From a virus, in the IMG/VR virus record IMGVR_UViG_3300046007_007262, positions 1-37,016 of that record: 37,016 bases of DNA; one strand, 5' to 3'. Positions 5,653 to 37,016 of this stretch are shown here, piece after piece. Each line of letters begins with the position of its first letter. Within the stretch, counting starts at the first letter, position 1. A model generated the notes under the pieces. That model saw nothing but the letters and a program-made list of their open reading frames with translations. It had not been told where the DNA came from and did no database searches. Position numbers and translations under genes: made by a program.

Positions 5653-8600
5653 TTACATTTCTATTTTAGAAAAACCATTTTCTTTCTTAATCTCAATCTG
5701 ATAATCAACTATATCCTTAACAACATCGATGTGTGATATAAGAATAACAAATTCAAATTGAGTTTTTAAATAATCTAAAAATGATGAAAAATTATTCAAT
5801 ACGGATGGGTCTAATGTCCCCAATCCCTCATCTATTGCCATAAAATTTGGTCTAGGTAGTGATGATACGTTTATAACCGCAGTTCGTATTGCTATAGATG
5901 ATATAAATCGTTCCATACCACTTGACATTTCTAATGGCCAAAATCTTTCATCGTCATACACAATATAAGTATTAATACTTTTACCATCCGTGTCAAATAA
6001 TACTTGAAAATCTACAATTTCTGATAAAATACTATTAGCTTCGGATTGTATTTTTGGTAATGCTTCACTAATCAATTCATATGGGACACCATTTCTATTC
6101 ACCGCTTTCAAATAATAATCATATGCATAAAATCTTTTCTCCAATTCTTGCAGTTTTTCTATAGATAATGAGCATTCATTTATTATTTGTTCGTGTATTT
6201 TTACTTCCCCGCTATATTCTAATATGTTAGTTTCTAATGCTTTTATATTTATAGTTTTTATTTCGTTTCTTTTTAATTCTAATTGCTGTAATTTTCGATA
6301 TATTTCGGTATTTGTTCTTATAGCTTGTTCATTTTCTTTGTATTTATTCAAAGAAATTTCTATTAAATTTAATTCCTTGTTTAAATTTGCTATAGATTCA
6401 TTTATGGAAAATATTTCTCGTTCTGTGGAGTATATTTTTTTCTGATAAACGAATGTATCATTTTCATATTTATGCATCAAATTTAATTTGTCATATACTC
6501 GTTTTCCATTTGAAAATTCTGTATTTAATTTTTGTAAATCATCCTGTGTTTTTGTTTTTTCCACAATTAATTCTTTTAATTTTTCTTCTGCTCTTTTTGC
6601 ATCTTTAACAAAAACATTATTATTGCAAAATTTACAATTTGGATCGTATTCGTGTGTGCTTAAATTATCTAGTTTCGATTGACAATGTTGTATTTGCAGA
6701 TTTATTTCTCGTAAATCAGAATCTAGGTCACGTATTGTTACTCGTATTTTTTCTAGTTCATTTTCTTTTGATTTAAGATCTTCTTTATCAAAATTTTTCA
6801 GTAGCTCAGAGTATCTGTCATGTTCTTTTTGAAATTCATTCAATTCAATATCTAGTAATGAGAGGCTATCATTTTTTTCTTGTATTTTTCTTTTAATAGT
6901 TAATGATTTGTTATCCAATGATTCTATGGATTCTAATTCAATATTACTATCTATATTTATTATGCCCTTGTTTAATTCTACTATTTCGATATTTAATGCA
7001 TCATATTCTTCTTGTAATTTATTTTTTTCATCTAATGCCTCATCTAACATCATATTATACTTTTTATATTTTATATTAGAATCTGCTATTTTTGTAGAAT
7101 AGTCCTGCTTACTGAATTCTTTTATAAGTGTTTGAACCCCTTTTATCTCATCAGATGCCAGTGCATTTAATTCTTCAAAAATATTTAAATCTAAGAACTG
7201 TGCTAATAAATCTTTTCTGTCTTTTTGCGTTTTATCTATAAAATTTGCATTATTTCCTTGAACAGACATTGCTGTTAAAATAAAATCATCATATGTTCCT
7301 AAATATCTTCTTATTATTTGATTTGTAGAATCTCTATCATCACCATTTAAAAATGTTTTATCATCATCATCACCTGTCCAAAAATCAACGTTTACTTTTA
7401 CATTTCCTTTTTTATCTCTAACACCAACCCTTTCTATTGCATACTCTTTTCCAGATATTTTAAATGAAAATTTACATTTAAATTCATTTTTAGTATTATT
7501 TAATACTTGACCAGCTTTAAATGTTCTAGTACACTTATCGAAAATACAAAACATTAATGCATCTAAAATGGAAGACTTGCCAGTTGCATTTGGTGCAAAC
7601 AAGCCGTATATCCCATTCATATCATCGAATTGTATTTTGTTATTTTCTGCATATGAGAACATATTATCAAATTCAAATTTTATAGGTTCCCATATAACAT
7701 TTCGAACTACATCATTATCTACTATTTTTTTATTGGTTTCGATGTTTATATTTTTAATAGTGTTCAGGATATCATCTGTTACATTAAAACGATTTTTTAT
7801 GTAATCAATTATTAATGTGTTTTGATGATCAACATTTCTAACATCCCCCTTTATAACTGGTGTTATTTGTGTTTGTGCTGTTATTTTATTGCTAATTCTC
7901 TGAATTTTTATATCTGAAACTGTTATATTTGATTTTAGTTTTGTTATTATTTTAAATAGATCGGCATTTGACGTATTGGATACTTTCAATCTAATACAGT
8001 TGAATTTTGAAAATTCAGAGGGTAGTAATTTTATTTTACCGTCTTCTATTTCTATTGTATGGTATGTCCAATCATTATGTATTTTTATAAATTTAGATTT
8101 ATCGTTCTCTATATCCCACTCTATTATGCCGTGAGTAAGACCTTCTCCAAAATTCTGTTGTATTAATGAGCCAGCATATGCAAATTTACTATTGGAGTCT
8201 AAATATTGGAATTTGTGTATATCCCCGAACATACCGTAATCATATCCATCAAACGTATCAATTGTTATGTATTTATTTTTCATAGTTGTTCCAATATCAG
8301 TTGATGCCATATCAACTGATCCGTGGAATAATACTATTTTGGTATTATCGCCTGGGACATCTTTTGCTAAAATAAAGTTTTCTGGTTGTTCGTATACGGA
8401 GTTTAATACGAAATCGATATTATGTATGGTATAGATCCCTGTCTGTTTTAGATAATATAAATTGTTAAAATCACTATCAATTAAATTGACTATGGGTGAT
8501 AATGCATCCATTCTATTTAGATTGTTTAAATTACAATCGTGATTTCCTGCTATTAGAACAGTTGGTGCTATTCTCGATAATGTGTCTAAAAATTCAGTTA

Positions 8601-8832
8601 CTATGGATACCAATTCGGGTGTCATGTCTGTTTTAGCATGCACAATATCGCCTGCAAGGTAAATTAAAGTATTAGGATTTTCTGTTACTTTTTCTCTGCA
8701 AATCGAATAAAGTTTCTCGAATACAGTTCTATACTCATCATGTCTTTTTAATGTGCGTATATGCACATCTGCAATATGTAATATTCTATCTACTCTAGTA
8801 ATTGCTGAAGTATTTATGTATTCTTTATGCAT
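5653..8832 (-). CDS. Fused SbcD-SbcC (Mre11-Rad50; T4 gp47-gp46) nuclease-ATPase
   Basis: One 1,059-residue chain carries both halves of the Mre11-Rad50 complex, which processes DNA ends and, in T4, supports recombination-dependent replication. The first ~330 residues are an Mre11-type phosphoesterase: IADVHI, AGDIVH, AGNHD, FHGS and FGDIHKF (the family usually has GHxH at the last site). From about residue 400 comes a Rad50/SbcC ATPase: P-loop APNATGKSS near residue 418, long coiled coil, zinc hook CKFC near residue 732, return coil, signature SSGMERF, and Walker B FMAIDEGLGTLD near residue 1000. T4 and most bacteria encode the two as separate genes. The start at 8832 has AAGG six bases upstream and overlaps the primase gene by eight bases. 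Confidence 0.93.
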   Translation of the reverse strand: MHKEYINTSAITRVDRILHIADVHIRTLKRHDEYRTVFEKLYSICREKVTENPNTLIYLAGDIVHAKTDMTPELVSIVTEFLDTLSRIAPTVLIAGNHDCNLNNLNRMDALSPIVNLIDSDFNNLYYLKQTGIYTIHNIDFVLNSVYEQPENFILAKDVPGDNTKIVLFHGSVDMASTDIGTTMKNKYITIDTFDGYDYGMFGDIHKFQYLDSNSKFAYAGSLIQQNFGEGLTHGIIEWDIENDKSKFIKIHNDWTYHTIEIEDGKIKLLPSEFSKFNCIRLKVSNTSNADLFKIITKLKSNITVSDIKIQRISNKITAQTQITPVIKGDVRNVDHQNTLIIDYIKNRFNVTDDILNTIKNINIETNKKIVDNDVVRNVIWEPIKFEFDNMFSYAENNKIQFDDMNGIYGLFAPNATGKSSILDALMFCIFDKCTRTFKAGQVLNNTKNEFKCKFSFKISGKEYAIERVGVRDKKGNVKVNVDFWTGDDDDKTFLNGDDRDSTNQIIRRYLGTYDDFILTAMSVQGNNANFIDKTQKDRKDLLAQFLDLNIFEELNALASDEIKGVQTLIKEFSKQDYSTKIADSNIKYKKYNMMLDEALDEKNKLQEEYDALNIEIVELNKGIINIDSNIELESIESLDNKSLTIKRKIQEKNDSLSLLDIELNEFQKEHDRYSELLKNFDKEDLKSKENELEKIRVTIRDLDSDLREINLQIQHCQSKLDNLSTHEYDPNCKFCNNNVFVKDAKRAEEKLKELIVEKTKTQDDLQKLNTEFSNGKRVYDKLNLMHKYENDTFVYQKKIYSTEREIFSINESIANLNKELNLIEISLNKYKENEQAIRTNTEIYRKLQQLELKRNEIKTINIKALETNILEYSGEVKIHEQIINECSLSIEKLQELEKRFYAYDYYLKAVNRNGVPYELISEALPKIQSEANSILSEIVDFQVLFDTDGKSINTYIVYDDERFWPLEMSSGMERFISSIAIRTAVINVSSLPRPNFMAIDEGLGTLDPSVLNNFSSFLDYLKTQFEFVILISHIDVVKDIVDYQIEIKKENGFSKIEM

Positions 8833-9784
8833 GTTTTACCTTATATTTTATAATATCATACATGTCTATTTCTTTTGTATTTTTTTTCTCTGAGTGAAAC
8901 CTATCAAATCCCATTTCATTTACATCTTTTTTATTTAAATCCATTAACGCAACATTTAATCCTTCTGACGATAGATATGATGCCAATTTTATAGACTCGG
9001 ATCTAGCATCATTATCCAATGCAACCGTTATTAGCTTAGGTCTTCGTAATAACAGTTTTTCTTTCAATTTATTTGATATGGTTTTACCAAATAATGGGAT
9101 CGCATTGCATCTGGCGGATATTGCATCAAATATGCCTTCAACAAGAGTTACGGGTTGATTCCAATTTATCAACGATTCAAGTCCTATTAAATTCTTTCCT
9201 ATGTTTGGATTTTTATATTTCATAGTGTCTTCATCGAAAATAGATCGTCCTATAAAAAAATTTAAATTCAAATTTTCATCATATGATGGTATTATCACTC
9301 TACCCGAATATTGGCCACTAGCACAATATCCTATTTCATATCTTAAAATATCTTCTCTAGTTATTGATCTACGTTTAAGATAATTTACAGCTTGTGTTAA
9401 TTGTAGTTTTAGAGCCACATCATCGATCGCTGGGTAATCGCATAATTTTACGAATTCTTTAGGTAGTATTAATTTTTCTTGTTCTTTTTTTGAAGACATG
9501 TTATACTGATATAGCTTCTTTGTTCCTATTATTTTGTATAACTCATCAAAATATTGTTTAGAAACCCCTATCTTTTTAAATAAAGACACAATGTCTCGGC
9601 CTTTATTATCGCTTATCCAACAGTGCCATAAATTTCTTCTTTTTTCATTTATACCGAAATCCACTTCCAATTTAGGCTTATAGTGATTTTTAAATGGTGA
9701 GAAGAATGCATAATCGTTACCAGAAGTTTTTCTACCCTTACCTAAAACTTTTTCAACTAAATTTAATAGATCATAGTTTATCAT
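8825..9784 (-). CDS. DNA primase, DnaG/T4 gp61-like with Toprim domain
   Basis: The protein (319 residues from the ATG at 9784; a GTG at 9790 would add two) would make RNA primers for lagging-strand synthesis. The Toprim core is clear: VEGIFDAISA near residue 215 with its catalytic Glu, then ALDNDA near residue 258. Upstream, the GRVIIPSYD and FIGRSI segments match the RNA-polymerase core of DnaG. The N-terminus aligns with the CHC2 zinc domain in layout (FFSPFKNHYKPKLEV, then LWHCWISDNKGRDIVSLF), but only one of the expected Cys ligands remains. There is no helicase domain. It is followed with overlap by SbcDC and preceded by endonuclease I, forming a DNA-metabolism cluster. Confidence 0.88.
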   Translation of the reverse strand: MINYDLLNLVEKVLGKGRKTSGNDYAFFSPFKNHYKPKLEVDFGINEKRRNLWHCWISDNKGRDIVSLFKKIGVSKQYFDELYKIIGTKKLYQYNMSSKKEQEKLILPKEFVKLCDYPAIDDVALKLQLTQAVNYLKRRSITREDILRYEIGYCASGQYSGRVIIPSYDENLNLNFFIGRSIFDEDTMKYKNPNIGKNLIGLESLINWNQPVTLVEGIFDAISARCNAIPLFGKTISNKLKEKLLLRRPKLITVALDNDARSESIKLASYLSSEGLNVALMDLNKKDVNEMGFDRFHSEKKNTKEIDMYDIIKYKVKHA

Positions 9785-9879: not shown

Positions 9880-10287
9880 TTAGACACATTCATCCAACCA
9901 TTCTTTTGGTATTTCTTTTTTAGCCCATTTCCATCCTTTTTTATCACAATACTGCGAATACGAAGTCTTACTACCTTTGTATAGTTTTGCGTTTGGGTTC
10001 TGGAAAACGAATCTAATATCTATATTTGGATATTGTTTAAATATCAAGTCAAATTTTAATCTATCAGCTTTAACCCATCGTCCTTTTGTTTCTATGTATA
10101 ATTTGTTTCCAGATTCTTTGTTTAAAATAAAATCTGGTGTGTAAGTATGTTTTGTTTCGGGTTGAGTGTAATTTATTTTTTCAGATTCGTAACTAAATAT
10201 TTTTTTTGCTTGTTTTAGTAGAGTATTTATCGTATCTTCCAATCCGCTACGAAATCCATGCTTTATTGCAATTTTATTTTTTTTCAT
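9880..10287 (-). CDS. T7-type endonuclease I (Holliday junction resolvase)
   Basis: This 135-residue protein matches phage T7 gp3 along its length. It should cut branched DNA such as four-way junctions. The conserved blocks are FRSGLED, SYE, HTYTPDFIL, IETKGRW, DIRFVF, LYKGSKTSY and IPKEWL. Residues corresponding to the T7 catalytic set E20, E35, D55, E65 and K67 are all present here as E17, E34, D52, E66 and K68. I chose the ATG at 10285-10287, which overlaps the TGA of the previous gene as TGATG; a GTG one codon upstream is possible. No good Shine-Dalgarno is seen, so translation is probably coupled to the structural gene before it. Its place among late genes fits a role in resolving DNA before packaging (inference). 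Confidence 0.93.
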   Translation of the reverse strand: MKKNKIAIKHGFRSGLEDTINTLLKQAKKIFSYESEKINYTQPETKHTYTPDFILNKESGNKLYIETKGRWVKADRLKFDLIFKQYPNIDIRFVFQNPNAKLYKGSKTSYSQYCDKKGWKWAKKEIPKEWLDECV

Positions 10288-12014
10288 CACATATCAAATC
10301 TTATTATAAAATTCATATCAACATCATCTCTTTTGTTTGTTGGATTTGCTAATTTTGCAATTGCTACTAATTCAAAATCACTGTTGTACAAACCAATTGT
10401 CGTTATGTATGGGTTGAAATAAGAACTAGTGACATAATCGGCTAACATATTAGATTCCACATCATTGTTTTTTCTAACTGTATAGTTCTGAGTAAAATTA
10501 AACTCATTTTTCTTTATCTTGCATATTATTTCATACTCATATAAAGTCATAGTATTTTTAAATTCCAAATCAAAACCATCATTTGTATAATAATCATAAT
10601 TTCCACTTCTACCTAATAATGCATTTTTATATTTTGGCCTAGGGTCTGATACTGTTATAAACCCTTGTTTGTAAAAAACATTACCAACTCTAGCGGTCTG
10701 ATATGCATATCCAGTTTCTAATGAATTATTATACAGATGTTGTATTTCATTCGATGTTAAATAGTCTTTATAGATACGGATCTCATCCATAGATCCAGAG
10801 AATGCATAATCATTTGATCCATTACTGGCTATAAACACAAAATCATCGTTATAGACTTGCTGTGGGATATTTACAGTTAAGCTAGAATCCAATACCCCAT
10901 TTAACCATATTTGATATGCACTAGAACTTTTTTGACAAACAACATGTGTCCATGTTCCAACAGATAATTGACTGGATGTAACTTCCGCAGTTGTTAATCC
11001 AGAACTCTGTTTGAACACTATTCGTCTTGGATTTGGATCTGTTGAATTTGTTAGATATATGTTAAATGGATATTGTTTTCCATTTTTTTCTTTTTTATAA
11101 ACTACAACATTGTAATATTCATCCAATTTACTGTCTAATTCTAAACCATTTTTACTAAATAATGTATTGTATTTATGCACTTCGGATTTTTGTGTACTTG
11201 GTGTGTTTATCCAAAAACTAAATGCAAAATTATCTGTATTTCTAAAATTAAATAGTTTATGATTGGTAACATCAAAATATCCACCGTGTAAATCTATAGC
11301 AACTCCAGTTGCTTCTCCAGTATCGGTTGTTGGTATGCCTGGTCTATATGATACTTCTTTATAATTTACTATATTTACAGAATTTCTATGTGTAGATCCG
11401 TCTATTACAAAATTATTTTTTCTAGTTCTGAAACCGTAGTCTCTATAATTCTCATTGAATCCCAGATACATCAATAATTTTGAATCGTTTATAAAATTGG
11501 ATTGGTTAAAATCGCTATCTATTAGATTGCCATATCCATCATCATACAGATAATATGTGTGTGTCGAACTAGTGCTATACATATTTATCTTCACACTTTC
11601 TTTTTTTATACCCTCACCAAACATATTAACTGGTAATGCTACTATTGATGACGATTCTGCTAAATATGTTTTTGTATTATAATCTATATTTTCTAGTGAT
11701 AGTTTATCTTTACTATAATCATTGTAAAACATATTATCCACCCAATACCATAGTAATTTAGGATCTATACTCTGGGTAGTAAATACCCTCTGATATAATG
11801 ATGATGAAATATTTACAACATTCCCAAAATATTTATGGTTTTCTGGGTAAAATGCTCTGTATATTGAGATTTTATCATTCTCGTAAAAAGAATTATTTAT
11901 AGACGTACTATCGAATTTCCACCGTTTATTTATCTCAAATGGTGTTATTGTATAGTCTCCCGATTTTAACGGCTTGTATACTAAACTAATTTCGTTATTT
12001 ATTTGAAATGCCAT
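10287..12014 (-). CDS. Structural protein with LamG-like domain and family C-terminal module (575 aa)
   Basis: The N-terminal ~190 residues have no recognised family. A LamG/concanavalin-like fold lies around residues 240-420, judged from FAFSFWINT, the segment around GTWTHVVCQKSSSAYQIWLNG, and SGSMDEIRIYKDYLTSNEI. Such domains usually bind carbohydrate or make protein contacts. The last ~95 residues (FNFTQNYTV, then PYITTIGLYNSDFELVAIAK) match the C-terminus shared by the four neighbouring structural proteins, making this a divergent member of that array. Its stop overlaps the endonuclease I start. A virion role is inferred from context. Confidence 0.75.
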   Translation of the reverse strand: MAFQINNEISLVYKPLKSGDYTITPFEINKRWKFDSTSINNSFYENDKISIYRAFYPENHKYFGNVVNISSSLYQRVFTTQSIDPKLLWYWVDNMFYNDYSKDKLSLENIDYNTKTYLAESSSIVALPVNMFGEGIKKESVKINMYSTSSTHTYYLYDDGYGNLIDSDFNQSNFINDSKLLMYLGFNENYRDYGFRTRKNNFVIDGSTHRNSVNIVNYKEVSYRPGIPTTDTGEATGVAIDLHGGYFDVTNHKLFNFRNTDNFAFSFWINTPSTQKSEVHKYNTLFSKNGLELDSKLDEYYNVVVYKKEKNGKQYPFNIYLTNSTDPNPRRIVFKQSSGLTTAEVTSSQLSVGTWTHVVCQKSSSAYQIWLNGVLDSSLTVNIPQQVYNDDFVFIASNGSNDYAFSGSMDEIRIYKDYLTSNEIQHLYNNSLETGYAYQTARVGNVFYKQGFITVSDPRPKYKNALLGRSGNYDYYTNDGFDLEFKNTMTLYEYEIICKIKKNEFNFTQNYTVRKNNDVESNMLADYVTSSYFNPYITTIGLYNSDFELVAIAKLANPTNKRDDVDMNFIIRFDM

Positions 12015-24742: not shown

Positions 24743-25345
24743 TTATAAATCGCCAGTAATATCATTTAAACTACTAGGTGACGTGTTTAATTGTTGAGTT
24801 ACTAAGTTTTCTAACTCTTGTAATTTATTATTTAACTGTTCTGTTAAATTCTGTATAACTTGATCTTTTGCCCTTAATTCCAAATCTTTTCTTATTAAAT
24901 CTTTGGATAATGTATTTATATTATTTTCATTTACTACGTCTATTTCTTCTCTGGATTTTAAAAGCTCATTTTTAGTTTTTATCTGATCTTTTAAAACTAA
25001 GATTTCACTCTTTAACCTGTCTACCGAATTTGTATCCGCATATTTTATATTCGTCATTGAATTAAAAAATGCAAGTTCTTGTTTTTTTAATTCCGTATCA
25101 GTTACTGGTGTGGTGTCGAATCTAGAATCTATGTAATCTTGTATTTTTTTATTTAATGAAACTATAACATTATTTTGTGCTTTTACTGCAGATGGTAAAG
25201 ATTTAAAATTTGAATCCACAATATATCTAAAATCATCAGTACGATATCTATTATCTGATATAAAAACTTCTAACATTCCATTGTTTTTAGACATATCTAT
25301 ACTAGATAGTATAAAACCATTATCATTTCTGTTTAATCCATCCAT
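24743..25345 (-). CDS. Coiled-coil protein of unknown function (200 aa)
   Basis: The first ~75 residues look like a small mixed domain (GFILSSIDMSKNNGMLEVFI). Residues ~100-190 form a long amphipathic helix with heptad spacing (SVDRLKSEILVLKDQIKTKN, then DLELRAKDQVIQNLTEQLNN), predicted as a coiled coil. The start shares bases with the stop of the upstream gene (TAATG). Lying between a DNRLRE-like protein and the large baseplate protein, it may be a trimeric fibre-linker or assembly factor; this is inference only. Confidence 0.7.
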   Translation of the reverse strand: MDGLNRNDNGFILSSIDMSKNNGMLEVFISDNRYRTDDFRYIVDSNFKSLPSAVKAQNNVIVSLNKKIQDYIDSRFDTTPVTDTELKKQELAFFNSMTNIKYADTNSVDRLKSEILVLKDQIKTKNELLKSREEIDVVNENNINTLSKDLIRKDLELRAKDQVIQNLTEQLNNKLQELENLVTQQLNTSPSSLNDITGDL

Positions 25346-26514
25346 TATCTAGTTACCTTGAAATAATAATTATTATCAAAAATTCTGATAGTATCTCCGC
25401 CGTCAGTTTCAGTCTTTACAACTACTCTATAGAACCTTTCTGGTTGAAAAGAGTTCATCCAGAGATTGAAATAATTCCCATTTTCGTCACAACTCATTTT
25501 AGTACCTATCACATCAAACGGTATTATAACTTCGTCAGTATGTGCATCGCGTATTTCATAAAATGATGATGTTGGTAAATAATATTTTTTAGTATAATAT
25601 GATTCGGTTGTATATGTTTTTTCTGGATATCTTTTGTTTGAATCCACTCTTATTTTTGCTTTTTCTCCTTCCGAATAATACTTGTTTAACTTTACGTTTA
25701 TATTAATATTGTCTAAAGTTGACGGCGATAAACTTCCTGTTGAAAAAACAGAATCATCCCATACCACATATAATTTTGGAACATATATCGTATTGCTATC
25801 TACTGAAAAAAACTTTATGCTACTGATGCTATCAAGTTGTCTTTCTAATTGATTGCTAAATTTTATTATCATCCCGTCATTGTCAAACCTACCAGATCCA
25901 GTTATCCATTTTTTTACAATTTGCGTTACATCCATATAAACATCTGTTGTTGCATAAGAAAAGGATTGTGTGCATATTATATTATCATCTTCCCACCAAG
26001 TTCCCCCACCAGATACTGATGTATATCCGTAATGAACTGTTGCTGCCGTATTTATTCCAAATAAACTTTCAGCATCTACCCAAGACTCTGATTGCAAATC
26101 CCACTCGTAATTATCTATTACTGGGTCTGTGTCCCATAACAAGCCTAAATTTTTTGAACTACGATATAACCACGATGCACCATCTGTTGTCTGTGGTTTG
26201 TTGAAGTATTTACCCGTACCATTAGACCAAGATGCGCTAACAGGATGTGCATTAATGGTATATTCCTGTGGTATTTCTGATGCATCAACTGTTTTTAACG
26301 ATAAATAATATTTTGCAGATTGTGAAATTTTTCCAGAATTTACACTCGATTCTACATCAGACACATCGAATTTCATCAATATTCTGCTATTGTATATTGA
26401 TTGTGTTACCGTAGCATCATGCGATAATTCGAGTATTGCATCAAGTCCTGTATTCATTGATGCTGATCGCTCGTATAGTGTGGTATCATATTGTGGGTAA
26501 ATTGAGTATATCAT
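25345..26514 (-). CDS. DNRLRE-like structural protein (389 aa)
   Basis: The first ~260 residues fit the DNRLRE beta-sandwich pattern known from secreted surface proteins: YPQYDTTLYERSASMNTGLD with the expected DTTL and N-x-G, then SRILMKFDVSDV, SASWSNGTGKYFNKPQTTDG, VYMDVTQIVKKWITGSG, NDGMIIKFSN, SISSIKFFSVDS and PKLYVVW. The last ~120 residues look like a separate Ig-like fold (SSFYEIRDAHTDEVIIPFDV, ERFYRVVVKTE). Start and stop overlap its neighbours (ATGA with the gp6-like gene). Its position directly after gp6 suggests a baseplate-associated, perhaps surface-binding, subunit. Confidence 0.75.
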   Translation of the reverse strand: MIYSIYPQYDTTLYERSASMNTGLDAILELSHDATVTQSIYNSRILMKFDVSDVESSVNSGKISQSAKYYLSLKTVDASEIPQEYTINAHPVSASWSNGTGKYFNKPQTTDGASWLYRSSKNLGLLWDTDPVIDNYEWDLQSESWVDAESLFGINTAATVHYGYTSVSGGGTWWEDDNIICTQSFSYATTDVYMDVTQIVKKWITGSGRFDNDGMIIKFSNQLERQLDSISSIKFFSVDSNTIYVPKLYVVWDDSVFSTGSLSPSTLDNININVKLNKYYSEGEKAKIRVDSNKRYPEKTYTTESYYTKKYYLPTSSFYEIRDAHTDEVIIPFDVIGTKMSCDENGNYFNLWMNSFQPERFYRVVVKTETDGGDTIRIFDNNYYFKVTR

Positions 26515-28406
26515 CCTATAGACCTCACTCTTCCTAAAATATCATTATCTGGATATTTTAATTCAAAAATAGAAGGATCCAGTGATGGGAATATTATTCC
26601 GTTTTTAGTCGCCATATTTAAATCATATGCATTTGGCGAATATCCTAGTGTTGTATCAAAGAAATTTTTGAATTTTACACTAACAACAGTTTGTACTCCT
26701 TCCACTTTATCTATTTCAGTATAAACATTACTGATAACAATTGGTTGATTTATTTGCCATTTTCTTATATTGAAGTAGTCTTTTAATTTTTGTATACATC
26801 TCATTACAACCATGTTGCCATTTTGATCGGGCATTGTTATTATATCGAATTCTATGCCTATGTTTATGATATACGCATCTTTTATATTGATGGCATCCGT
26901 TAGCATTCTATGGTGATTTAAATATGTTTTTAGGTTTTCTTTTGTTGCGTTGTTTATCGTAGTTAATTTACTATTCGAATCATAACCTAGAACATAAAAA
27001 TTTAATGCTAATTGATTTTGTAATCTATCCGTATTATAGATTGAGTCTTTTGTCAATTGTGTATCTTTTGTAATGTATGCTTTTGCTATTGATCCATACT
27101 TAGACGGTAAACTATATGCCCGTACAATATAATCCTCTTTTGTAACTGCTCTATTTTGCGAAGAAAAATATGCTAAAGCATTCTGTCTTATTGCATCTAT
27201 ATCTTCTCTTGTGTTTCCGCCACTTGCTGGTTCTGAATTAACTGCTGATAAACTAGCAATGCATTGGTTATACAGTACTGGATCTAGTCCCGTTTCATCT
27301 ACTAAAATATTTCTGTATAATATATTGGTTATAGTATTTGACGGCACATTATCTCGTATTCCTCCCCCTTTTGTATAATAGATAGTTATATCCGTATTGT
27401 TTGGTGCAAGCCCATATGTCTTTGTGTATAAGAAGTTTGATGGATCTATATCCGAAACAACCTCAGTTCCAACTGCAAGTAAAGCACTTCCTATTAAATC
27501 TGGATTAGGTATCAGTAGCTCATCATCCATATTAGAAACACCAGCACCAAATTGTATTTCAAATTTTCCTGGACCAATTTCTCTAGATACAAATCTTCTT
27601 GGTATTTTTCTTAATTTCAGTAAATACGGTGTCTCTGTTCTATATTGTGATAATGATACATCATTTCTGGGTATATTTGGTGTTGTTTCAAAAATAGTAT
27701 CTTGTGCAAGATATGGTGCATGATACCATTTATTTCCATCGGAATCCATTCCATATAATATTTCTATTAAATCTGGTTCATCTAATGTAATTTTTTCGTA
27801 TGGTTTTGGGTCAGTAAATGAATACGTCTGTGTTTCTATCACACCAGACACCGCATTTGTTGTTTTTTTAAGTAGCCAAAATGTTATCTCATTGGTAGAA
27901 TCATCAACTTCAAATGGGGTAACTTCTGTTGGGTCCATACTACTACTGTGTTTAAAATCTATGTAATCTATAGTTCTAAAGTTTGAATTAAAACCGATAG
28001 CGTTTGTTGAGAGTGTCATCCCAGGTTCTATTGCTATTGCGTAGTTATAATCTGGAACTATTTGACCACTCTCTGTTTTAGATGGTACTATTTGAAAAAC
28101 ATCTATTTTTACATTAGATGCTACTAAATTTTTTGGCTTATATCCTAATGACTGTGCTATATTTAAAATATTTTTTTCTTCAGCAGCCTGTAATATCATA
28201 GATTCTTGCAGTGCAACATCGGTATAATATGATAGAACATCCCCAACATATGCGGCCATTTCTAAAAAAACCATCCCAGGTGATGCTTCGTTAAAATCTC
28301 TATATGTTGATGGGAAATAATTTTTTGTAAAATCTATAAGATTCTGTTTTAATGTTGGAAAGTCTTTTCCCAAGTATCTTATATCTTTTTTTACTAAATC
28401 ACTCAT
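26511..28406 (-). CDS. Baseplate wedge protein, T4 gp6 / baseplate J family
   Basis: The protein (631 residues from my chosen start; T4 gp6 is about 660) should form the wedge ring that joins baseplate sectors. The N-terminus is typical: DIRYLGKDFPTLKQNLIDF, YFPSTYRDFNEASPGMVFLE, MAAYVGDVLSYYTDVALQES, then ILNIAQSLGYKP. The middle has the J-like core (GPGKFEIQFGAG, YYTKGGG, NTREDIDAIRQNALAYFSSQ, NRAVTKEDYIVRAYSLPSKY). I chose the ATG at 28404-28406 (MSDLVKKD) because AGAGG lies six bases upstream; it overlaps the gp25-like gene by eight bases. An in-frame ATG at 28430 would add eight residues. Confidence 0.9.
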   Translation of the reverse strand: MSDLVKKDIRYLGKDFPTLKQNLIDFTKNYFPSTYRDFNEASPGMVFLEMAAYVGDVLSYYTDVALQESMILQAAEEKNILNIAQSLGYKPKNLVASNVKIDVFQIVPSKTESGQIVPDYNYAIAIEPGMTLSTNAIGFNSNFRTIDYIDFKHSSSMDPTEVTPFEVDDSTNEITFWLLKKTTNAVSGVIETQTYSFTDPKPYEKITLDEPDLIEILYGMDSDGNKWYHAPYLAQDTIFETTPNIPRNDVSLSQYRTETPYLLKLRKIPRRFVSREIGPGKFEIQFGAGVSNMDDELLIPNPDLIGSALLAVGTEVVSDIDPSNFLYTKTYGLAPNNTDITIYYTKGGGIRDNVPSNTITNILYRNILVDETGLDPVLYNQCIASLSAVNSEPASGGNTREDIDAIRQNALAYFSSQNRAVTKEDYIVRAYSLPSKYGSIAKAYITKDTQLTKDSIYNTDRLQNQLALNFYVLGYDSNSKLTTINNATKENLKTYLNHHRMLTDAINIKDAYIINIGIEFDIITMPDQNGNMVVMRCIQKLKDYFNIRKWQINQPIVISNVYTEIDKVEGVQTVVSVKFKNFFDTTLGYSPNAYDLNMATKNGIIFPSLDPSIFELKYPDNDILGRVRSIG

Positions 28407-28893
28407 TGGTTGCCTCTGTAATGGATACATTACCTGTTTCTGATATAAATAGCTTTACTGGCAAATAAATGTTTAAATATGAGATATAAAGATTCAGATC
28501 CACAAATATAGCATGATCTGGCTCCAATACTCTACCATCGCTAGTTATATTTGTATCTACTTCTATTGATCGTATTCCAACATAGGGCATCCAATATGAT
28601 ATAGCATCAGATATTTCTGCTCTTATTCTAGTATAAATTTCTTCTTCAGATGTTATATTTTCAAATAAAATGAATTTCAATTCCGTACCAAATTCTGGTA
28701 ACATGTATCTGTCACCCTTTGTAGTAGATAATAAATTTTTTAAATTTGCAATAACTTGTTCTCTATCTACATATGTTTTTCGGAAAATACCACTTTCTTC
28801 ATTAAATGGTAAATCCACACCAATAGACTTTTGAAGTCTGGTGTCTGTTGTTTTTGGTGCAAAAAATTCTACTTTATTTCTATATTTTGCCAT
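28399..28893 (-). CDS. Baseplate wedge protein, T4 gp25 / GPW family
   Basis: This 164-residue protein has the gp25 lysozyme-like fold signature: GVDLPFNEESGIFRKTYVDR, VIANLKNLLSTTKGDRYMLP, EFGTELKFILFENIT, then EIYTRIRAEISDAISYWMPY and VGIRSIEVD. The EFG motif after the small helix is a hallmark of the family. It is a core wedge subunit contacting the sheath-tube end; despite the name no lysozyme activity is expected. Its length is slightly above the T4 protein (132), with an extra C-terminal strand pair. It directly precedes and overlaps the gp6-like gene, the order seen in many contractile tail systems. Confidence 0.92.
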   Translation of the reverse strand: MAKYRNKVEFFAPKTTDTRLQKSIGVDLPFNEESGIFRKTYVDREQVIANLKNLLSTTKGDRYMLPEFGTELKFILFENITSEEEIYTRIRAEISDAISYWMPYVGIRSIEVDTNITSDGRVLEPDHAIFVDLNLYISYLNIYLPVKLFISETGNVSITEATNE

Positions 28894-28895
28894 TG

Positions 28896-29294
28896 TTATT
28901 TACCTTTCTTTTCATCTATTTTTTGCATCAACTTAGAATAATCCCTGTTTAATGCGTTCATTATATTTGATGGTATTTCTTCCCCACTCATTCCCGATGG
29001 TACATTATTATAATGAATCGAATCCGTGTTGTATATTCCGCTTAGATTCATATTATCATATTCGGAGTCATAACTTTCTTGTAATGACCGTTTTGTTTCA
29101 TTCAGTATATCTTGAATGCTTGAAAATTCAGATATTTTTTCTTTAGGTTTTTTAAATAGCTTTGTTTCAGATACATCCTTTTTTGGTTTTATATCAAGCT
29201 CTTTTTTTGAATTTTTAATAGATGAATCTAGAGCTATTTCTATTTCTTCGCGTATTATAGATCTTATTTTTTGAAAAAATTTGTCAGAATTCAT
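28896..29294 (-). CDS. Small charged protein of unknown function (132 aa)
   Basis: No family is recognised. It starts with an amphipathic helix (KFFQKIRSIIREEIEIALDS), then a Lys/Glu-rich stretch, a low-complexity Ser/Tyr/Asn segment and a short C-terminal helix. The start at 29294 has AAGGA and AGGA motifs upstream. It lies two bases before the gp25-like gene and 60 bases after the giant protein gene, so it belongs to the baseplate block; a chaperone or small structural subunit is possible. Confidence 0.65.
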   Translation of the reverse strand: MNSDKFFQKIRSIIREEIEIALDSSIKNSKKELDIKPKKDVSETKLFKKPKEKISEFSSIQDILNETKRSLQESYDSEYDNMNLSGIYNTDSIHYNNVPSGMSGEEIPSNIMNALNRDYSKLMQKIDEKKGK

Positions 29295-29354: not shown

Positions 29355-32300
29355 TTAAGGTTCGGTAAATACTATACTTTGTTCATAAGGCTTTATGTAA
29401 TTTTTAGTAATAGCCTGTTTTATTGCCGAATCTGCAGTAGTTTCCCATTCTATTGACAATTGAATTACATCTGCCAATATTTCACCTAATTGTAAATTAC
29501 CATCATTTATTAAATTTCGTGTTTTTCCTGGGTATTCAGCATTATCTAATGCACCAAATTTAACTGATCCGAAAATAAAATCGTCTTTATTTATACTAGA
29601 AAATATTGTGCTATTTAAATCCCAGGGCGGTGTTTTATCTTTAGACGGTATAACAACACCTAATGCGATAGCGGTGAATACTTCAGCGAGGTTGGGATCT
29701 TCTGAAAATTGTGAAGATCTTCTTGATAGATATTTATCGATTAGTTCTAATTGATCCAGCATATTCATTTGTAGTATTTGATCTGTAGTAATTTTAAATA
29801 TTTTCAGATCACTAGAAGGATCCGTTTCTGGTTTGAACGCAATCAATCCAACTGATCCTGATTTTGGATTTTTGTATTTTAAATTAAAATCAGATAAATA
29901 ATCTATGGTTGCCATGAGATGGGACATTTTTATTGAATATTTTTTACATATATCTTGTATTTTTTGTAATACCTGTTTTAATAGGCCAAGTCCACCTGAT
30001 CTTGTGGATAATTTCTTACCCATTACTAAAAATCTTCTACTATTTATTATTCTTCGTATCTCATCATATCTTGCTGGTCTCTGTCCATCTATTACATAAT
30101 ATGATATACCATATTCTGGTAAGATATTTTCTGCATTATTCATGGTTATTTTACTATAAGTCTTAGTTTGCGCATCATATGCAGATACTCTATTATCATT
30201 TACTATATTCATCATATTCTCCCATCCAGAAAAGTATCTGATCCCGCTTTTAACTTCAGATCTCCATCTAGATGCGTGGCGTTTTGCCCACCTGTGGCTT
30301 AAACAGTTGAATGGTATAAAATCAGGTGCTATCATAGTCTGACATCCCGCAGAATTTGTAGAGTCTAGATCGCCAAAATGTATTAAATTACTACCAAAAG
30401 AACTATACCCACTATCTAATGCACCCAGAGTTGTAAATACAGTATTTGTTCCATATAATCTCACTCTGACATCATCACCAAAAGTAGACATCAATCCCGT
30501 ATCAAAATCTAGTTTGTTCTTTATTTTAAAATTATAAATATTTTTAACTGGCTGACTTTCATCTATTAAAATCACATTTCGATTTCCACTAAAATTATTA
30601 TTATTAAACCCTCCATTATGGGTATCGACTAATGACGTGAATGTTCTACTTAAATCTGAAAACGTATTTTCCTTAGTACATGGTCTGTCGCCATAATTGG
30701 GTCCACACATATCCATACGCCATTTCGGTATACTATTGAACGACTCATATCCAGAATATTGTTGTGATGATATAAACTTCAGCAATGCGTGGTTGTGTGC
30801 CCAGAATGCAATATATTTTATCTTATTAAATTTTCCATCATCCCTTAAACCTATATGCCATGCAAATCCAGCACAATTATCAACTTCTGTGGGGTCATTT
30901 GAGGTGCATTGCTTTCCATTTGCTTCCCCATATTGTATGAACCAACGTGGATGAAATGTATATGCCCCAGGGTATATGATATTGTCTGCGTTTCGACCTG
31001 TAATATAATTTTCATCCGTATTTTGACCCATACCACTTAAAGTAGGATCTAAATTATATCTCCATGAAGACATTCTCAATTTACTTTCAAATAAAAACAT
31101 AGCATCGTCATAGATTCCAATATTATTTTGCCGTTCAACACCCGAGTAATAACCACGTATTGCAACCATACATGGGAAATGTATTTTATACACTTTATCT
31201 AAATCCGAAGTAGCTTTTTTTGAATTTTCATCTTCACATTTAAATTTGAAATTTGCTACTTCTGGTGGATCTGGGTAGTTTTCGCAATTAGTATCTACCC
31301 ATGCGGGTTTTTGATCAGTTCCAGGTCCAGATGTTCCAGGTCCAGATGTTCCAGGTCCAGATGTTCCAGGTCCAGATGTTCCAGGTCCAGATGTTCCAGG
31401 TCCACCAGTTCCAGGTCCACCAGTTCCAGGTCCACCAGTTCCAGGTCCACTAGTTCCAGGTCCACTAGTTCCAGGTCCACTAGTTCCAGGTCCAGATGTT
31501 CCAGGTCCACTAGTTCCAGGTCCACCAGTTCCAGGTCCACTAGTTCCAGGTCCACTAGTTCCAGGTCCACTAGTTCCAGGTCCAGATGTTCCAGGTCCAG
31601 GTTGATCACAATCTTCTGAAAAACTAACTATAGTATCACACTCACCTTCTAATATTACCAATTCAACTCTTCTATTTTTTGGATCATTCGGTGGTATTCC
31701 TGGCAATAGACGAGTAACCCCAAATCCAACTGCTTCTAACCTAGATCCACTGATACCACATCGTATTAATGCCGCCTTTATAGCATCCGCTCTAGCTTGA
31801 CTCAAGCGTAAGTTATATTCATCATTGTCTCCTTCTTTGGATGCATGTGCTTCTATCCTTATCTTTAATGTTGGGCAGTCTTTCAACCACTTACATATTT
31901 TGTCTATTTCAGATTGAGATTGTGGTCTGAGTGTTGGGCTATCGTACTCAAATAAAAGTATCTCCACACATATTTCTTTTTTTGGTGGAGGTGGTGGAGG
32001 TGGTGGAGGGGGTGGTGTATTATTACATTTTCTATTATAAATTGCCACCAAACGATCACGCAAAATTTGCTTTTGTGTGGTTGTACAACCATTACAAAAT
32101 GATTCGTCCCGAAGTATCTGTTCTATTTGAGGGCAGGTGTATAATTCTAATTTTTCATCAGGATCGCCTGGCCAAGGGTAGAGTGATGTATCTAATGGAT
32201 CGTCCCAATTTTGTTCGCTGTCATAGTCATCACTTAAGAAAAACGATGTTCTACCATCAACACCAGTTCCTGTTCCTGTGCCAGTTCCTGTTCCTGTGCC

Positions 32301-35300
32301 AGTTCCTGTTCCTGTTCCTGTGCCAGTTCCTGTTCCAGTTCCTGTTCCAGTTCCTGTTCCAGTTCCTGTGCCAGTTCCTGTTCCTGTGCCAGTTCCTGTT
32401 CCAGTTCCTGTTCCTGTACTAGTTCCTGTACCAGTTCCTGTTCCTGTACCAGTTCCTGTACCAGTTCCTGTTCCTGTACCAGTTCCTGCTCCATCTATAT
32501 TATTATCCTTCACATAGTTGTGGCCAACATATGACCAAACTACTTTTGGTAGTGTGTCAAATTTATAGCCATCAGCTACATGTTGTGCAAAAATATAATT
32601 ATTTTGATCCCAAATTCCTCTACTAGCGTTATATCGCAATGCTCCTTCTTGATCTTTTAACGCATCCGATAAACAATTGCATGGTGTATATTCGAATTGC
32701 TCTCCAGTTAATGGGTCTGTGTATAAAACACCCGATGTATTATTGTAATTATCCTGTAACTCATTTATGGTATTGGTTTTGTTTGTTTCTATTTTTGATT
32801 TATATCTTTCATTGTGTTTATTTTCAGCCTCTAAAAGTATATTATTATATTTATGAAACAATGCTATTCTTTCAGATAATCCAGAATCCCCACCATTCAC
32901 GAATTTAGTAATTCGTGTAACACACTGATTATGTATATCATCAGTTTCTCCCTTATTACCGTAATACTTATTTATTTCCATTAATAGATCCTTACCACCA
33001 GTCTGACCTTTAGAATTTTTCTGTCCTCTAAAAAACCACCCAGCAGCATGAGCACTATAGTCGTATGCAACATAGTCTGGTTTTTCTATAACATTTTTTG
33101 CTATAGGATCATAGTTTAGCTCCTTTTTATGGACAGTCATATAATCGTGAAACCTTTCATAATTATACTTATGCGTTAAATGTATCCACCCCCTACCATG
33201 ATACTTAGATCCACCATTATATGGTTTCCCGCCATATGCCGCAGTGTCTAAGTATTCCATACTACCTACTTCAAAAAAATTAATCCACCCATTTGTTTCA
33301 TGCGCACATTGAGCTAAAAAATGAGCAAGAGTTAATCTGGTATTTATTTCAAAAAAACCTATGATGAAATTTAGCTGTTCAAAAACAGGTATTCTAAGAC
33401 CGAAATCTGGGTTTCTACTTAGTATATTACCTTTATCATCTTTTATTTGTTTGCTTATATTGATCCCATACGACCATTGATGGAGTGGTGGGTTTTTGGT
33501 ATCATCGTCTATATTATCTGTTAATGCTTTATTGTGGAATTGTGTCAATCCCCATGGTATGTATAATTTATTTCTATCAGCAGGACCTTTGTATACGTAA
33601 TCCGATTCTTTAGAAACAATACCTAATGCCTTATCAATATTGTCAATCTTTTGTGGTATTCCAGTTTTAGGATCACGTTCAGCTCGTCGATTTATCCTAG
33701 GTTCTAGTGGATATATTAATCTTTCGTATAAATCCCCTCCTATACTCCATACTGATTTTTTATATGTACTATCTTTGGTTTCACCTACCAGACTACTAAC
33801 AACTTCAAATATATTTCCATTTTGCAATGATTTATATCTACCATATTCTGGTGATCTTGTGTCGAATGGGCTTATTGCTTGTGGGTTTGTAGATGCTACT
33901 TCGTATAATAACCTATCCACATTTTTTTGAAAGTTTAATTCTGCACACAATAAATTTAATATTTGCTCATTCGTAGCTTTTGGATTTTCTCTAGGAAAAA
34001 TCTTATTAGAATCGCCATATACTTCTTGAACATTTTTATTTTGTATACCAGTTTCCCGTCGTATATCTTCCAATTGTTCTTCTGGAGTTTTTTCTGCAGA
34101 TTTTTCTTTAATTGAATTTTTTTCTTGTTTTGGTGCGCAGTTTTCATCTGGTTCATTTTTCAACTTTGCTTCCCTTTTCTTATCATCTTCTGCAGAATCT
34201 ACATTTTCCTTTTCCTTTTTATCATTATTACTCGCTATTAAAGATGATACATCCGTTAAACTCGTTTGTTCTAATTCTGTTTGTAGAGATGCAATCGAAG
34301 ATGTTCCAGATGTAGATATATCGTTTGATGTTAAATTCGAACCATCAGAAACTCCAGTCATATCCACTGCAGTTAAATCCTCATTGCTACATTTAAATCC
34401 AATTATACTACCATACCATCTCTCAGGAACTCCGCTACCGTTTTTATTTCGATCCATGGAGTAATATTTATCCACACCATTGTTTTTATAGTACATAAAT
34501 GTGGATCCCCCACCATCTAATGCCAATGCGTGTTTTATATCTGGTATTAATTTCTTTATAGTATTTGCTAACCCAACATTTAATGGTTGATTAAAAAATG
34601 TCATAAGAACAACTATTCCATTATTTTTGACCCCAAGAACCGTTCTTCTATCCAAATTACCTTCAATTGATGTACCAGTATTTTTACCGTTTATTATCAA
34701 TGCTGGTAAACCATGCATTACTCCGTTTGCATATTTAGACGAATCTGATACTATTGATGAAATGTCATCATAATCTCCATTTGTTTGATATATTCCATAT
34801 CCTTTATCTGTAGAGTCTATGGTCATAAAATCAAATTTATTTGGAATTCTTAAATCCGATATTCCTAATGTTGGATATGATCTAAATGGAGGTTCCTGTT
34901 GATCTCTAGTAGGTTCTCCTTTTGATTTTGGTTTTACGAGTGTTTTTCCCCTAAATGTATTATACGCTGGTCCATAAAATCCACCATTTATAGCACCATC
35001 CATATACCAGGAACTTCCATCTTTCAACTTCAGTCCAGGACTAGTTGTTGCCCCAGTCGTTGTATATCCAAATGCAAATCTTTGTCTATACCAACTGAAT
35101 TTTTGTCTAGCACCGTTTGGGTTATCTACTCCTAAAAATTTAACATTTTCGGGCTTACAAAATGCTAACCAATATGAACTACCATCTGTTTTAATATTTT
35201 TAGAACAACTACTCTGCTGTGGTGTTGATCCAGGCCCAGATGTTCCAGGTCCAGATGTTCCAGGTCCAGATGTTCCAGGTCCAGATGTTCCAGGTCCAGA

Positions 35301-37016
35301 TGTTCCAGGTCCACCACTCCCACCTGTTGCAAAATTCATAGAATATTGTAATTTACAATTTTGATGGACTTCTACTACTACTGAGTTTAATTTTAATTTT
35401 AATACTACAAATCCACCATCATTACTCGCATAGAATGAGCCAACCCCTTTTGATGGATTTGTTCTTTTATTTGCACCACCTGCCCCCGAAACTATACATC
35501 CGAATTTATCTTCTGGGTGTTTTATCAGTTGTATGTTATGTTCATGTCCACATAAATACATGTCTACATTATACTGTTTTAATATATTGCTCAGTTTGTT
35601 TCGCATAACTGGTGCATCATCATTTTGGTATGTGCCGTATGATCGTATTGGGTGGTGTCCCATTACGATCTTCCATCTAGAACCCCTTTCGTTTGATTTT
35701 TGTAATTCTTGTTTTAACCACTGTAGCTGGCTTTCATCGTTTTGGCCTAAAATTGTAGTTGTATCTAATGCAAAAAAATCTACTCTAAACTCTTGATTAT
35801 TTGCACCATTAAATGTACTAGAAAATGTATAATACTTCGATGGCATATACCATCTTTTAGATCCTAATTGTTTAGTACTATACTCTATTTGTGCTTGAAT
35901 GTTTCCACGATGATCGTGGTTTCCTAATATAGAATACCACTTTGGTTTCGTGGTATACATGTCTTCAAATTTTGTTTTCCATTGCGAATCTGTTGTACTA
36001 GTTACGCCACTGTTATAAAAATTATCACCAGTATTCAATATTCCTAAAACTTCACCACCAGCCGTTCCTGTCAATAACTTATAATATAAATCAAAGTATT
36101 TTTTTCTAAGTGGCCACGTTCTATCGCTACCATGCACAACTTCTGTTATACGTCTTCCAGCACTTTCGCCTTGGTCTGCTATTATTCTCAAATCTATACC
36201 ATTAGTTCCACCTATAAAATAAAATGCAGACGCTTCAGCTGCGTATTTGAAAGCAACTGAATCTAAATTTGACATAATATCATCGGATATTCCAAGATTA
36301 CTATTTAAATATTCTTGAAATTTTCTGTAGTTTCTTTCATGGGTTAATTGAATCCAACCCCTACCGTGATATTTACCATAACCTTTTTGATTAAATCGAT
36401 CAATACTACCATATTCGAAAAAACTACGCCAATTATCAGTTTCATGCGCACACTGTGCTAAAAAATGCGCCAATCTAAATGCAGTGTTTATTTGATATTT
36501 TGGTATTATTATAGATTCTATTTTAGAAAAAACATCTATGGGGGTGTCCAATCCTGGATTTCTAGTTAATATTCCAGAATCAGAAATGGGTCCACGACTC
36601 ACTTGTATGCCATCTATCGTTGATTTATTTTCTCTATTCGGTGAATGTATTAATGTCGTTGGTATGTATCCATCCTCGTTTGGACCTAATGTGTTTAGCA
36701 TTTGTATGTTTATATTTTGCGTAGATCCTTCTCTTATCGAGATGTATTCATTTAAACATTTTGCAACTTCTTTTTGTCTGGAATCTCCAGATCCCCAATC
36801 GCCTATCACAACGAATACTTTGGATGGATCAGTATCGGGTGTTCGTCTGTCTTGTGGTCTGAATGGGCCATCATCTGATGGATCTAGTTGCGCTGTTGGG
36901 TCGTTTGGGTCTGGACCTTCACCTGTATCACTAGGTCCAGATGTCCCAGGCCCAGATGTTCCAGGTCCAGATGTTCCAGGTCCAGATGTCCCAGGTCCAG
37001 GTCCTGGTTCATCGCT
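29355..37016 (-). CDS. Giant multi-enzyme tail/virion protein (5' end beyond window)
   Basis: The frame is open to the right edge (2,553 codons in window). A GTG at 36809 is not a believable start, since it would cut off the first beta strand ([10 protein letters not shown]) of a folded domain. In order from the N-terminal side: GPGTS linker; purple-acid-phosphatase-like domain with a GH19 domain nested in it; GPGTS linker; NAGPA-type phosphodiester glycosidase; charged Lys/Glu region; ~190 unassigned residues; second GH19 domain; Gly-Thr repeat; short Cys-bearing segment; poly-Pro; OmpA domain; long GPGTS linker; a C-terminal region with an SAGCQ motif and a transglycosylase-like fold lacking its glutamate. 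It is followed by baseplate genes, so the likely role is a tail-tip or virion-associated machine that opens the host envelope. No signal peptide can be judged because the N-terminus is absent. Confidence 0.88.
29720..29960 (-). other. Domain: transglycosylase-like fold with missing catalytic Glu
   Basis: [31 protein letters not shown] and [15 protein letters not shown] follow the lysozyme-like transglycosylase pattern (LMAxIxxESxF, SGAxGLIQFxPxT, L..M..xxQLxxV.KYf). The expected Glu-Ser at the active site is Leu-Ser here, so catalysis is unlikely and a binding or structural role is inferred. Confidence 0.6.
30270..31240 (-). other. Domain: C-terminal region with SAGCQ motif, function uncertain
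   Basis: Blocks [42 protein letters not shown] and [17 protein letters not shown] recall the His and SxGCQ pattern of phage-associated, YkuD-like wall proteins in which the Cys is the nucleophile. The resemblance is from memory of the motif and is weak. Several other Cys residues occur upstream. Confidence 0.35.
31318..31602 (-). repeat. GPGTS pentapeptide linker, 19 units
   Basis: A 15-base tandem repeat encodes GPGTS with GPGTG variants (units 5 and 11-13 counted from the N-terminal side) and a final GPGTD. It joins the OmpA domain to the C-terminal region. All three frames stay open on both strands over most of it, an effect of the repeat. Confidence 0.92.
31645..31975 (-). other. Domain: OmpA-like peptidoglycan-binding
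   Basis: Beta strand [18 protein letters not shown], then [39 protein letters not shown] and the final NRRVEL give the OmpA C-terminal pattern. The family binds diaminopimelate in peptidoglycan non-covalently. The site that is usually Asp in the GHTD motif is HAS here, as in many homologues with an HASKEG-type loop. It would anchor the enzyme on the cell wall. Confidence 0.85.
31983..32015 (-). repeat. Poly-proline run, 11 residues
   Basis: Eleven consecutive CCN codons (CCA, CCC and CCT) precede the OmpA domain, giving a stiff polyproline-II spacer. On the plus strand it appears as a GGT/GGA-rich tract. Confidence 0.92.
32262..32497 (-). repeat. Gly-Thr dipeptide linker, nearly 40 units
   Basis: A 6-base repeat (GGAACT/GGAACA/GGCACA types) encodes alternating Gly and Thr with a single GTS break. 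It separates the second GH19 half from the OmpA half. The short unit makes it prone to length change by slippage. Confidence 0.92.
32830..33400 (-). other. Domain: second GH19-type glycosidase
   Basis: Motifs repeat those of the nested copy: [39 protein letters not shown] and [10 protein letters not shown]. Both expected glutamates are present. An insertion after the second motif and a longer loop before the last helix set it apart from the first copy. GH19 members cleave chitin or peptidoglycan glycan strands; peptidoglycan is the likely target in a phage. Confidence 0.83.
34383..35200 (-). other. Domain: NAGPA/DUF2233-type phosphodiester glycosidase
   Basis: Recognised from [48 protein letters not shown] and the hallmark [14 protein letters not shown]. 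Family members hydrolyse sugar-phosphodiester bonds, as in mammalian uncovering enzyme, which removes GlcNAc from GlcNAc-1-phospho-mannose. In a virion it could remove phosphodiester-linked sugars from teichoic acid, capsule or LPS; the substrate is inference. Confidence 0.82.
35230..35315 (-). repeat. GPGTS pentapeptide linker, five units plus GPGST
   Basis: The same 15-base unit as at 31318-31602, here between the acid-phosphatase fold and the NAGPA domain. Several units are identical in DNA to those of the other two arrays. Confidence 0.9.
35336..36062 (-). other. Domain: C-terminal portion of the acid-phosphatase-like fold
   Basis: After GDNFY come [13 protein letters not shown] (metal-binding Asn and His), [28 protein letters not shown] (His), [11 protein letters not shown] (two His) and IVSGAGG. 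These match the dinuclear-metal ligand set of purple acid phosphatases in order (D, D/Y, N, H, H, H). The substrate is probably a phosphomonoester; which one is unknown. Confidence 0.85.
36063..36821 (-). other. Domain: purple-acid-phosphatase-like core split by a nested GH19 domain
   Basis: The phosphatase starts at [13 protein letters not shown] (motif I, Asp codon at 36798-36800) and its first helix follows ([10 protein letters not shown]). Motif [12 protein letters not shown], comes only 258 residues later (Asp codon at 36024-36026); in mammalian tartrate-resistant acid phosphatase the corresponding Asp14 and Asp52 are 38 apart. The interval (about 36072-36550) is a GH19 chitinase/lysozyme-like domain: [15 protein letters not shown] with the general acid Glu, FFEYGS with the second Glu, and [18 protein letters not shown]. 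Both active sites look intact. Confidence 0.85.
36933..37007 (-). repeat. GPGTS pentapeptide linker at the window edge
   Basis: Four GPGTS units flanked by GPGP (N-terminal side) and [10 protein letters not shown], directly before an Asp/Pro-rich spacer and the acid-phosphatase domain. Its presence implies at least one more domain upstream of the window edge. Confidence 0.9.

Follow-up and report, generated by a model that had tools for sequence, protein, structure and literature searches.

The giant gene described here probably encodes a virion-associated polylysin that sits in the baseplate hub or spike of a contractile-tailed, T4-like phage, a reading to which we assign a probability of about 0.68. 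It is based on the domain content of the predicted protein and on the position of the gene, in a slot that some relatives fill with lysins, upstream of gp25 and gp6. The gene was found in the window, i.e., the whole stretch of DNA that was analysed, a virus record of 37,016 bases that is probably a genome fragment; the phage is of a freshwater type. The reading frame runs on the minus strand from position 37016 to a stop at 29355-29357 and comprises 2,553 codons; its 5' end is open, being truncated where the contig stops within a GTSGPG array. The true N-terminus of the protein thus lies beyond the window, and an anchor may be located there. At this base composition, an open stretch of such length has a chance probability of ~1e-74, and GC3 along the frame is even (0.17-0.26) and similar to that of the adjoining genes, so that the one unbroken frame of at least 2,553 codons named in the original prediction stands. 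The features of the frame and of the adjoining baseplate genes are as follows, with the supporting evidence in brackets.

29355-37016, minus strand: the giant frame, truncated at its 5' end, with 2,553 codons or more (frame list, open-stretch probability)
36732-36821, minus strand: N-terminal piece of a purple acid phosphatase with beta1, metal motif I (GDWGSGD, residues 72-78) and helix 1 (placed by aligning 30 homologues from bacteria; model pLDDT 87-90)
36063-36731, minus strand: GH19 unit a, inserted between phosphatase motifs I and II; probable catalytic pair Glu192/Glu201 (alignments, PDB match, spacing as in PaGH19Lys)
35322-36062, minus strand: C-terminal piece of the purple acid phosphatase, motifs II-V (GDNFY, GNHD, GHHP, GHEHN) (Pfam Metallophos 1.4e-17; 2bq8 3e-27; Z 36.5 to 2bq8)
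35229-35313, minus strand: GTSGPG linker array 1, 15-bp unit (repeat search)
34377-35204, minus strand: NAGPA-type phosphodiester glycosidase, NGGFY at residues 677-681 and DGGGS at 834-838 (Pfam NAGPA 4e-12 on the segment)
32742-33764, minus strand: GH19 unit b with N-terminal extension; probable catalytic pair Glu1240/Glu1249 (Pfam 2.5e-6 on the segment; phrog_181 endolysin 1.4e-33)
32263-32493, minus strand: Gly-Thr repeat linker (repeat search)
31647-31967, minus strand: OmpA-type domain, preceded by a poly-proline stretch (Pfam OmpA 2.6e-17)
31317-31599, minus strand: GTSGPG/GTGGPG linker array 2, 283 bp (repeat search; join confirmed by the related strain L374)
30057-31274, minus strand: putative L,D-transpeptidase-fold (YkuD-like) domain with an insert of ~200 residues; 14-residue His/Cys stretch at residues 2212-2225 (phrog_3000 match, family fold search)
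29358-30056, minus strand: C-terminal transglycosylase-like domain, catalytic Glu replaced by Leu (IDYLSDFN) (PDB 9udh, phrog_196, L374)
28896-29294, minus strand: conserved 132-aa gene between the slot and gp25 (frame list, relatives)
28399-28893, minus strand: gp25-like baseplate wedge protein (Pfam GPW_gp25 3e-9)
26511-28430, minus strand: gp6-like baseplate wedge protein (70% identical to that of Microcystis phage Mel-JY01)

Domains of the giant protein

An acid-phosphatase-like domain had been predicted from the sequence, and this assignment is borne out by a Pfam Metallophos match above cut-off in the whole-protein search, by a PDB sequence match to human tartrate-resistant acid phosphatase (TRAP, 2bq8), and by intact motifs. 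The seven metal ligands of motifs I-V (GDWG, GDNFY, GNHD, GHHP, GHEH) are all present in an alignment with 30 homologues, which were drawn from a bacterial-genome scan (80 retained of 521 relatives). The best matches of the scan belong to Kapaibacteria, Ignavibacteria and Bacteroidota, with identities of up to 45%; in the alignment, the bacterial homologues share 34-46% identity with the phage domain. The fold and motifs are thus those of TRAP and its bacterial counterparts; unlike these, however, the phage protein carries a GH19 domain of ~220 residues between motif I (residues 72-78) and motif II (GDNFY, 330-334). The distance between the two motifs is 258 residues here, compared with 32-38 in all 33 bacterial homologues measured, a spacing that is a usual rather than a strictly defining feature of TRAP-like enzymes; once the insert is left out, the sequences on either side of it align normally. 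In the alignment, the insertion falls between helix 1 and strand 2 and is the only large disturbance. In an AlphaFold2 model, most of the phosphatase was confidently predicted on both sides of the insert, and the model could be superimposed on TRAP with a Z-score of 36.5 and an rmsd of 2.0 (269 of 304 residues aligned, model residues 5-511, both flanks included). The GH19 part of the model was poor; it had no aligned rows and was not relied on. From alignment and model together, GH19 unit a is predicted to be physically nested inside the phosphatase, a point that is new relative to the original prediction, which had missed it. Because the borders of GH19 unit a carry no repeat, a repeat-mediated false join does not explain the nesting.

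A scan of viral contigs with the phosphatase profile revealed no viral relative of this domain. TRAP-like folds are present in the BFVD for giant viruses and for gp352 of Bacillus phage G. Two records labelled 'Bacteriophage sp.' with phosphatase matches (MT835888 and MT835841) were considered as phage precedents and rejected, as they look bacterial; they contain TonB-receptor-like and exporter genes, and their phosphatase has a signal-like N-terminus.

The two expected GH19 domains were likewise recovered. The family was detected by Pfam above cut-off in the whole protein (1.3e-8). Taken alone, unit a stays below the Pfam cut-off (21.3 versus 25.5 bits); its PDB match is to the PWe2 endolysin (5.5e-8), and the two units match each other with 35% identity over 244 aa (2e-36), including an N-terminal extension common to both. 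Each unit possesses a pair of Glu residues nine positions apart (E192/E201 and E1240/E1249, counted from the AHET positions and the sequence). These are probably the catalytic pairs, since their spacing matches that of E51/E60 in the muramidase PaGH19Lys (PMC12329726).

The NAGPA-type phosphodiester glycosidase is supported by Pfam at 1.5e-10 in the whole protein and 4e-12 on the segment (47.1 bits against a cut-off of 25), with the DGGGS motif kept, and the Pfam score of the OmpA domain (2.6e-17) also agrees with what had been proposed. In OmpA C-terminal domains, an Asp and an Arg form the DAP-binding site. Here, the arginine of LSQARA is present and NRR is kept, and the position of the usual Asp in GHTD reads AHAS.

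The first of the two C-terminal domains (residues 1915-2320) had no Pfam match, no credible PDB match, and no match in the phage records searched by tblastn. A relationship emerged with the phrog_3000 family, which is itself without any Pfam hit. Among phrog_3000 phage proteins fetched by a DNA pattern for the GIYDDA motif of this domain, matches were found in two pieces (best 2.9e-12 within the set so fetched), of which the second, a stretch of 16 residues, is independent of the fetching motif. For a model of one family member (L350, pLDDT 88.8), 49 of the 50 matches listed in a fold search were L,D-transpeptidase-fold proteins, with Z-scores of up to 9.8, this search having been made with the L350 model; a Foldseek search with the same model was weak (best 0.033) and again pointed to an L,D-transpeptidase. 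The catalytic His and Cys within residues 2212-2225 align with the His and Cys of the family and are kept in the related strain L374. These results support the assignment of the first C-terminal domain to a phage family with a predicted L,D-transpeptidase fold, and with it the earlier suggestion of a possible YkuD-like domain.

The last domain (residues 2321-2553) matches a lytic transglycosidase in the PDB (9udh, 4.5e-4) and the 'baseplate hub' family phrog_196 (1e-8). The catalytic Glu of SLT transglycosylases is Leu in both strains, in keeping with the dead transglycosylase-like domain suggested before. The N-terminal extension of GH19 unit b was considered for this role and rejected, the C-terminal domain being the better match.

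The gene slot beside gp25 and gp6

The giant gene lies within the baseplate module, just upstream of the 132-aa gene, gp25 and gp6. The gene order is the same in phage Mel-JY01, in which the slot is occupied by a 343-aa 'putative chitinase' (WWT39505) and a separate 200-aa GH19 gene is located elsewhere; our literature search returned no paper on Mel-JY01. In related contigs, complete slot genes encode proteins of about 80 to 1,388 aa, mostly 200-400 aa, with larger ones in the nearest relatives. Some of these proteins carry GH19, NAGPA, M15 or C39 domains, two carry a VgrG-type DUF2345, and many have no recognisable enzyme. Multi-domain examples include a GH19-M15 combination, NAGPA-bearing proteins and one frame of at least 1,219 aa. 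The slot proteins of Mel-JY01, L010, L013, L015 and L016 share with the giant protein their place upstream of a ~140-aa gene, gp25 and gp6, their GH19, NAGPA or M15 modules and, in some cases, low-complexity linkers. They differ in length (343 to 1,388 aa), and searches revealed in them no phosphatase, OmpA or nested domain and no sequence match for either of the C-terminal domains that end the giant protein. Among the 47 slots scanned, phosphatase and OmpA domains occur only in this phage. The best matches of both domains are in the Bacteroidota/Chlorobi group, and the nearest phage, Mel-JY01, has been reported on Microcystis.

Several further observations were made on the slot proteins and on the genes around them. 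The slot proteins of L009, L010, L011 and L014-L017 have in common a region unknown to Pfam that appears CHAP-like by eye, with IGGNT; those of L010, L015 and L016 also contain a region resembling an alpha/beta hydrolase. In L015, a second NAGPA-like gene (8392-9036) directly follows the 1,388-aa slot protein, which itself ends in NAGPA. In the window, two minus-strand genes (10287-12014 and 25345-26514) encode a Concanavalin-A-like lectin domain (2.3e-17) and a CBM96 match (9.4e-6), and their products are possible receptor-binding parts. A 1,059-aa protein (5653-8832, minus strand) matches SbcD-like phrog_100 and SbcC-like phrog_77 and is possibly a fused SbcCD; in the relatives L375 and L376, a frame of 1,065 aa gives a metallophosphatase match.

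Most phage tail lysins have no more than one or two enzymes. In T4, for example, the peptidoglycan hydrolase gp5 sits on the baseplate hub/spike and contains a single lysozyme domain. The giant protein would resemble gp5 and other virion-associated baseplate lysozymes as a peptidoglycan hydrolase carried by the baseplate hub/spike, and its C-terminus resembles the phrog_196 baseplate hub family; in contrast to gp5, it combines several enzyme folds, and some of these have targets other than the glycan strand. No place covering 80% of the protein was found by tblastn in 50,697 phage records, the best coverage being 15%, via GH19, and a viral contig scan with the whole protein returned only an identical fragment (L003). 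Within the records and contigs searched, the domain combination, as had been anticipated, and the nesting therefore look new. The slot and the idea of virion-borne lysins are already known. Of the 'new type of entry machine' that had been proposed, the multi-enzyme, envelope-attacking character is upheld by the domains and the gp25/gp6 position, but the wording is too strong, as the slot of relatives holds shorter multi-domain lysins. The giant protein is an extreme case within a modular series of probable virion-associated lysins.

Alternatively, the protein might act late, as a lysis or capsule-degrading protein that is released from the cell and not carried in the virion, with the baseplate genes merely adjoining. 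The GH19 units indeed score best against endolysins, and a dedicated endolysin was not seen in the 37,016-base fragment. However, the position upstream of gp25 and gp6 is common to many relatives, Mel-JY01 keeps its stand-alone GH19 gene apart from the slot, and the C-terminus matches a baseplate hub family, which makes this alternative rather unlikely.

Repeat arrays, assembly and strain comparison

The length of the frame raises the question of whether at least two genes with GTSGPG repeats were joined in frame inside identical arrays, so that the gene would be partly an assembly product. The 15-bp GTSGPG unit is present at three places, one of which is the contig end, and a false join there would keep the frame. 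Moreover, the L003 contig, which is identical over 5,616 bases, begins inside array 2, i.e., its assembly breaks at the same array. Against this, a related strain from another sample (L374; 86-93% DNA identity in the two main aligned pieces) covers the region from the OmpA domain across array 2 and the C-terminal domains into the baseplate genes; its giant frame is not broken by any stop, and its array 2 differs in sequence. Because this independent contig crosses array 2 in frame, the array 2 join is real. A single assembly covers the joins at array 1 and at the Gly-Thr array, which lie N-terminal of OmpA; here, array 1 is only 85 bp long, GC3 is even and the nested GH19 unit is bordered by no repeat. 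An assembly break within the arrays, which the original prediction had named among the findings that would refute it, thus did not occur at array 2, and overall a partly artificial gene appears quite improbable.

The two strains also offer a view of how the gene evolves. With dN/dS values of 0.23 and 0.17, the two C-terminal domains are both under purifying selection, yet they change faster than gp25 and gp6, for which dN/dS is 0.01-0.02. Across array 2, dS jumps from 0.19 (49 codons on the OmpA side) to 1.4 beyond the array, which suggests that modules have been exchanged close to it. A polymorphic receptor or adhesion protein, with mostly inactive enzyme folds binding surface sugars and phosphates, would fit this faster evolution, the catalytic residue clearly absent in one domain (the C-terminal transglycosylase-like domain) and the altered OmpA site, but is very unlikely given the intact active-site residues of the phosphatase, GH19 units a and b, the NAGPA motifs and the L,D-transpeptidase-fold domain.

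Elsewhere in the window, a collagen-like gene (3-2495, minus strand) contains Gly-X-Y repeats, owing to which long frames are also open on the opposite strand, and the GTSGPG linkers of the giant protein can likewise be divided into Gly-X-Y triplets. A gene for a prolyl 4-hydroxylase is present in Mel-JY01.

Proposed action at the host envelope

For the baseplate-hub polylysin, the retained active sites are consistent with a multistep action during entry. Points that weigh against this reading are that the OmpA domain is without its usual Asp, that the joins N-terminal of it come from one assembly, and that most slot relatives are only 200-400 aa long, many having no recognisable enzyme. The C-terminal domain, being hub-like and catalytically dead, may dock the protein to the baseplate. 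Once the tail has made contact, the flexible linkers of GTSGPG and GT repeats would let the modules reach different layers of the envelope. On phosphodiester-linked sugars, the NAGPA domain would remove the covering sugar and the phosphatase would then remove the exposed phosphate; OmpA would tether the protein to peptidoglycan, the GH19 units would cut glycan strands, and the L,D-transpeptidase-fold domain would trim or cut stem peptides. Their combined action would open a passage for the tail tube.

The stripping of phosphates and sugars during entry is suggested by the domain families present. In mammals, acid phosphatase 5 acts after NAGPA on GlcNAc-phospho-mannose. The NAGPA uncovering enzyme of mammals is known to act on this substrate (PMC5297682). 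The two enzyme families are the same in the phage, with the difference that both reside on one protein here, and because they act in turn on GlcNAc-phospho-mannose in mammals, a sequential NAGPA/phosphatase pair is plausible by analogy. A literature search for work joining phosphodiester glycosidase, phage and peptidoglycan returned no paper. More specifically, the protein could combine two-step removal of phosphate-linked surface sugars with peptidoglycan cutting on the same chain, the wall cutter inserted in the phosphatase coupling the activities; this proposal is tentative, and we consider it possible rather than probable.

The layout suggests an unusually elaborate tool for passing the host envelope. 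The insertion of a wall hydrolase at an otherwise constant phosphatase loop is an unusual enzyme-in-enzyme arrangement and provides a ready test case for coupled activities, and the gene and its relatives are a source of candidate cell-wall and glycan-phosphate enzymes. Together, they point to a hypervariable slot beside gp25 and gp6 where phages assemble enzyme chains. Therefore, host envelope chemistry, such as phosphodiester-linked glycans and the type of cross-link, might be readable from the modules that occupy this slot.
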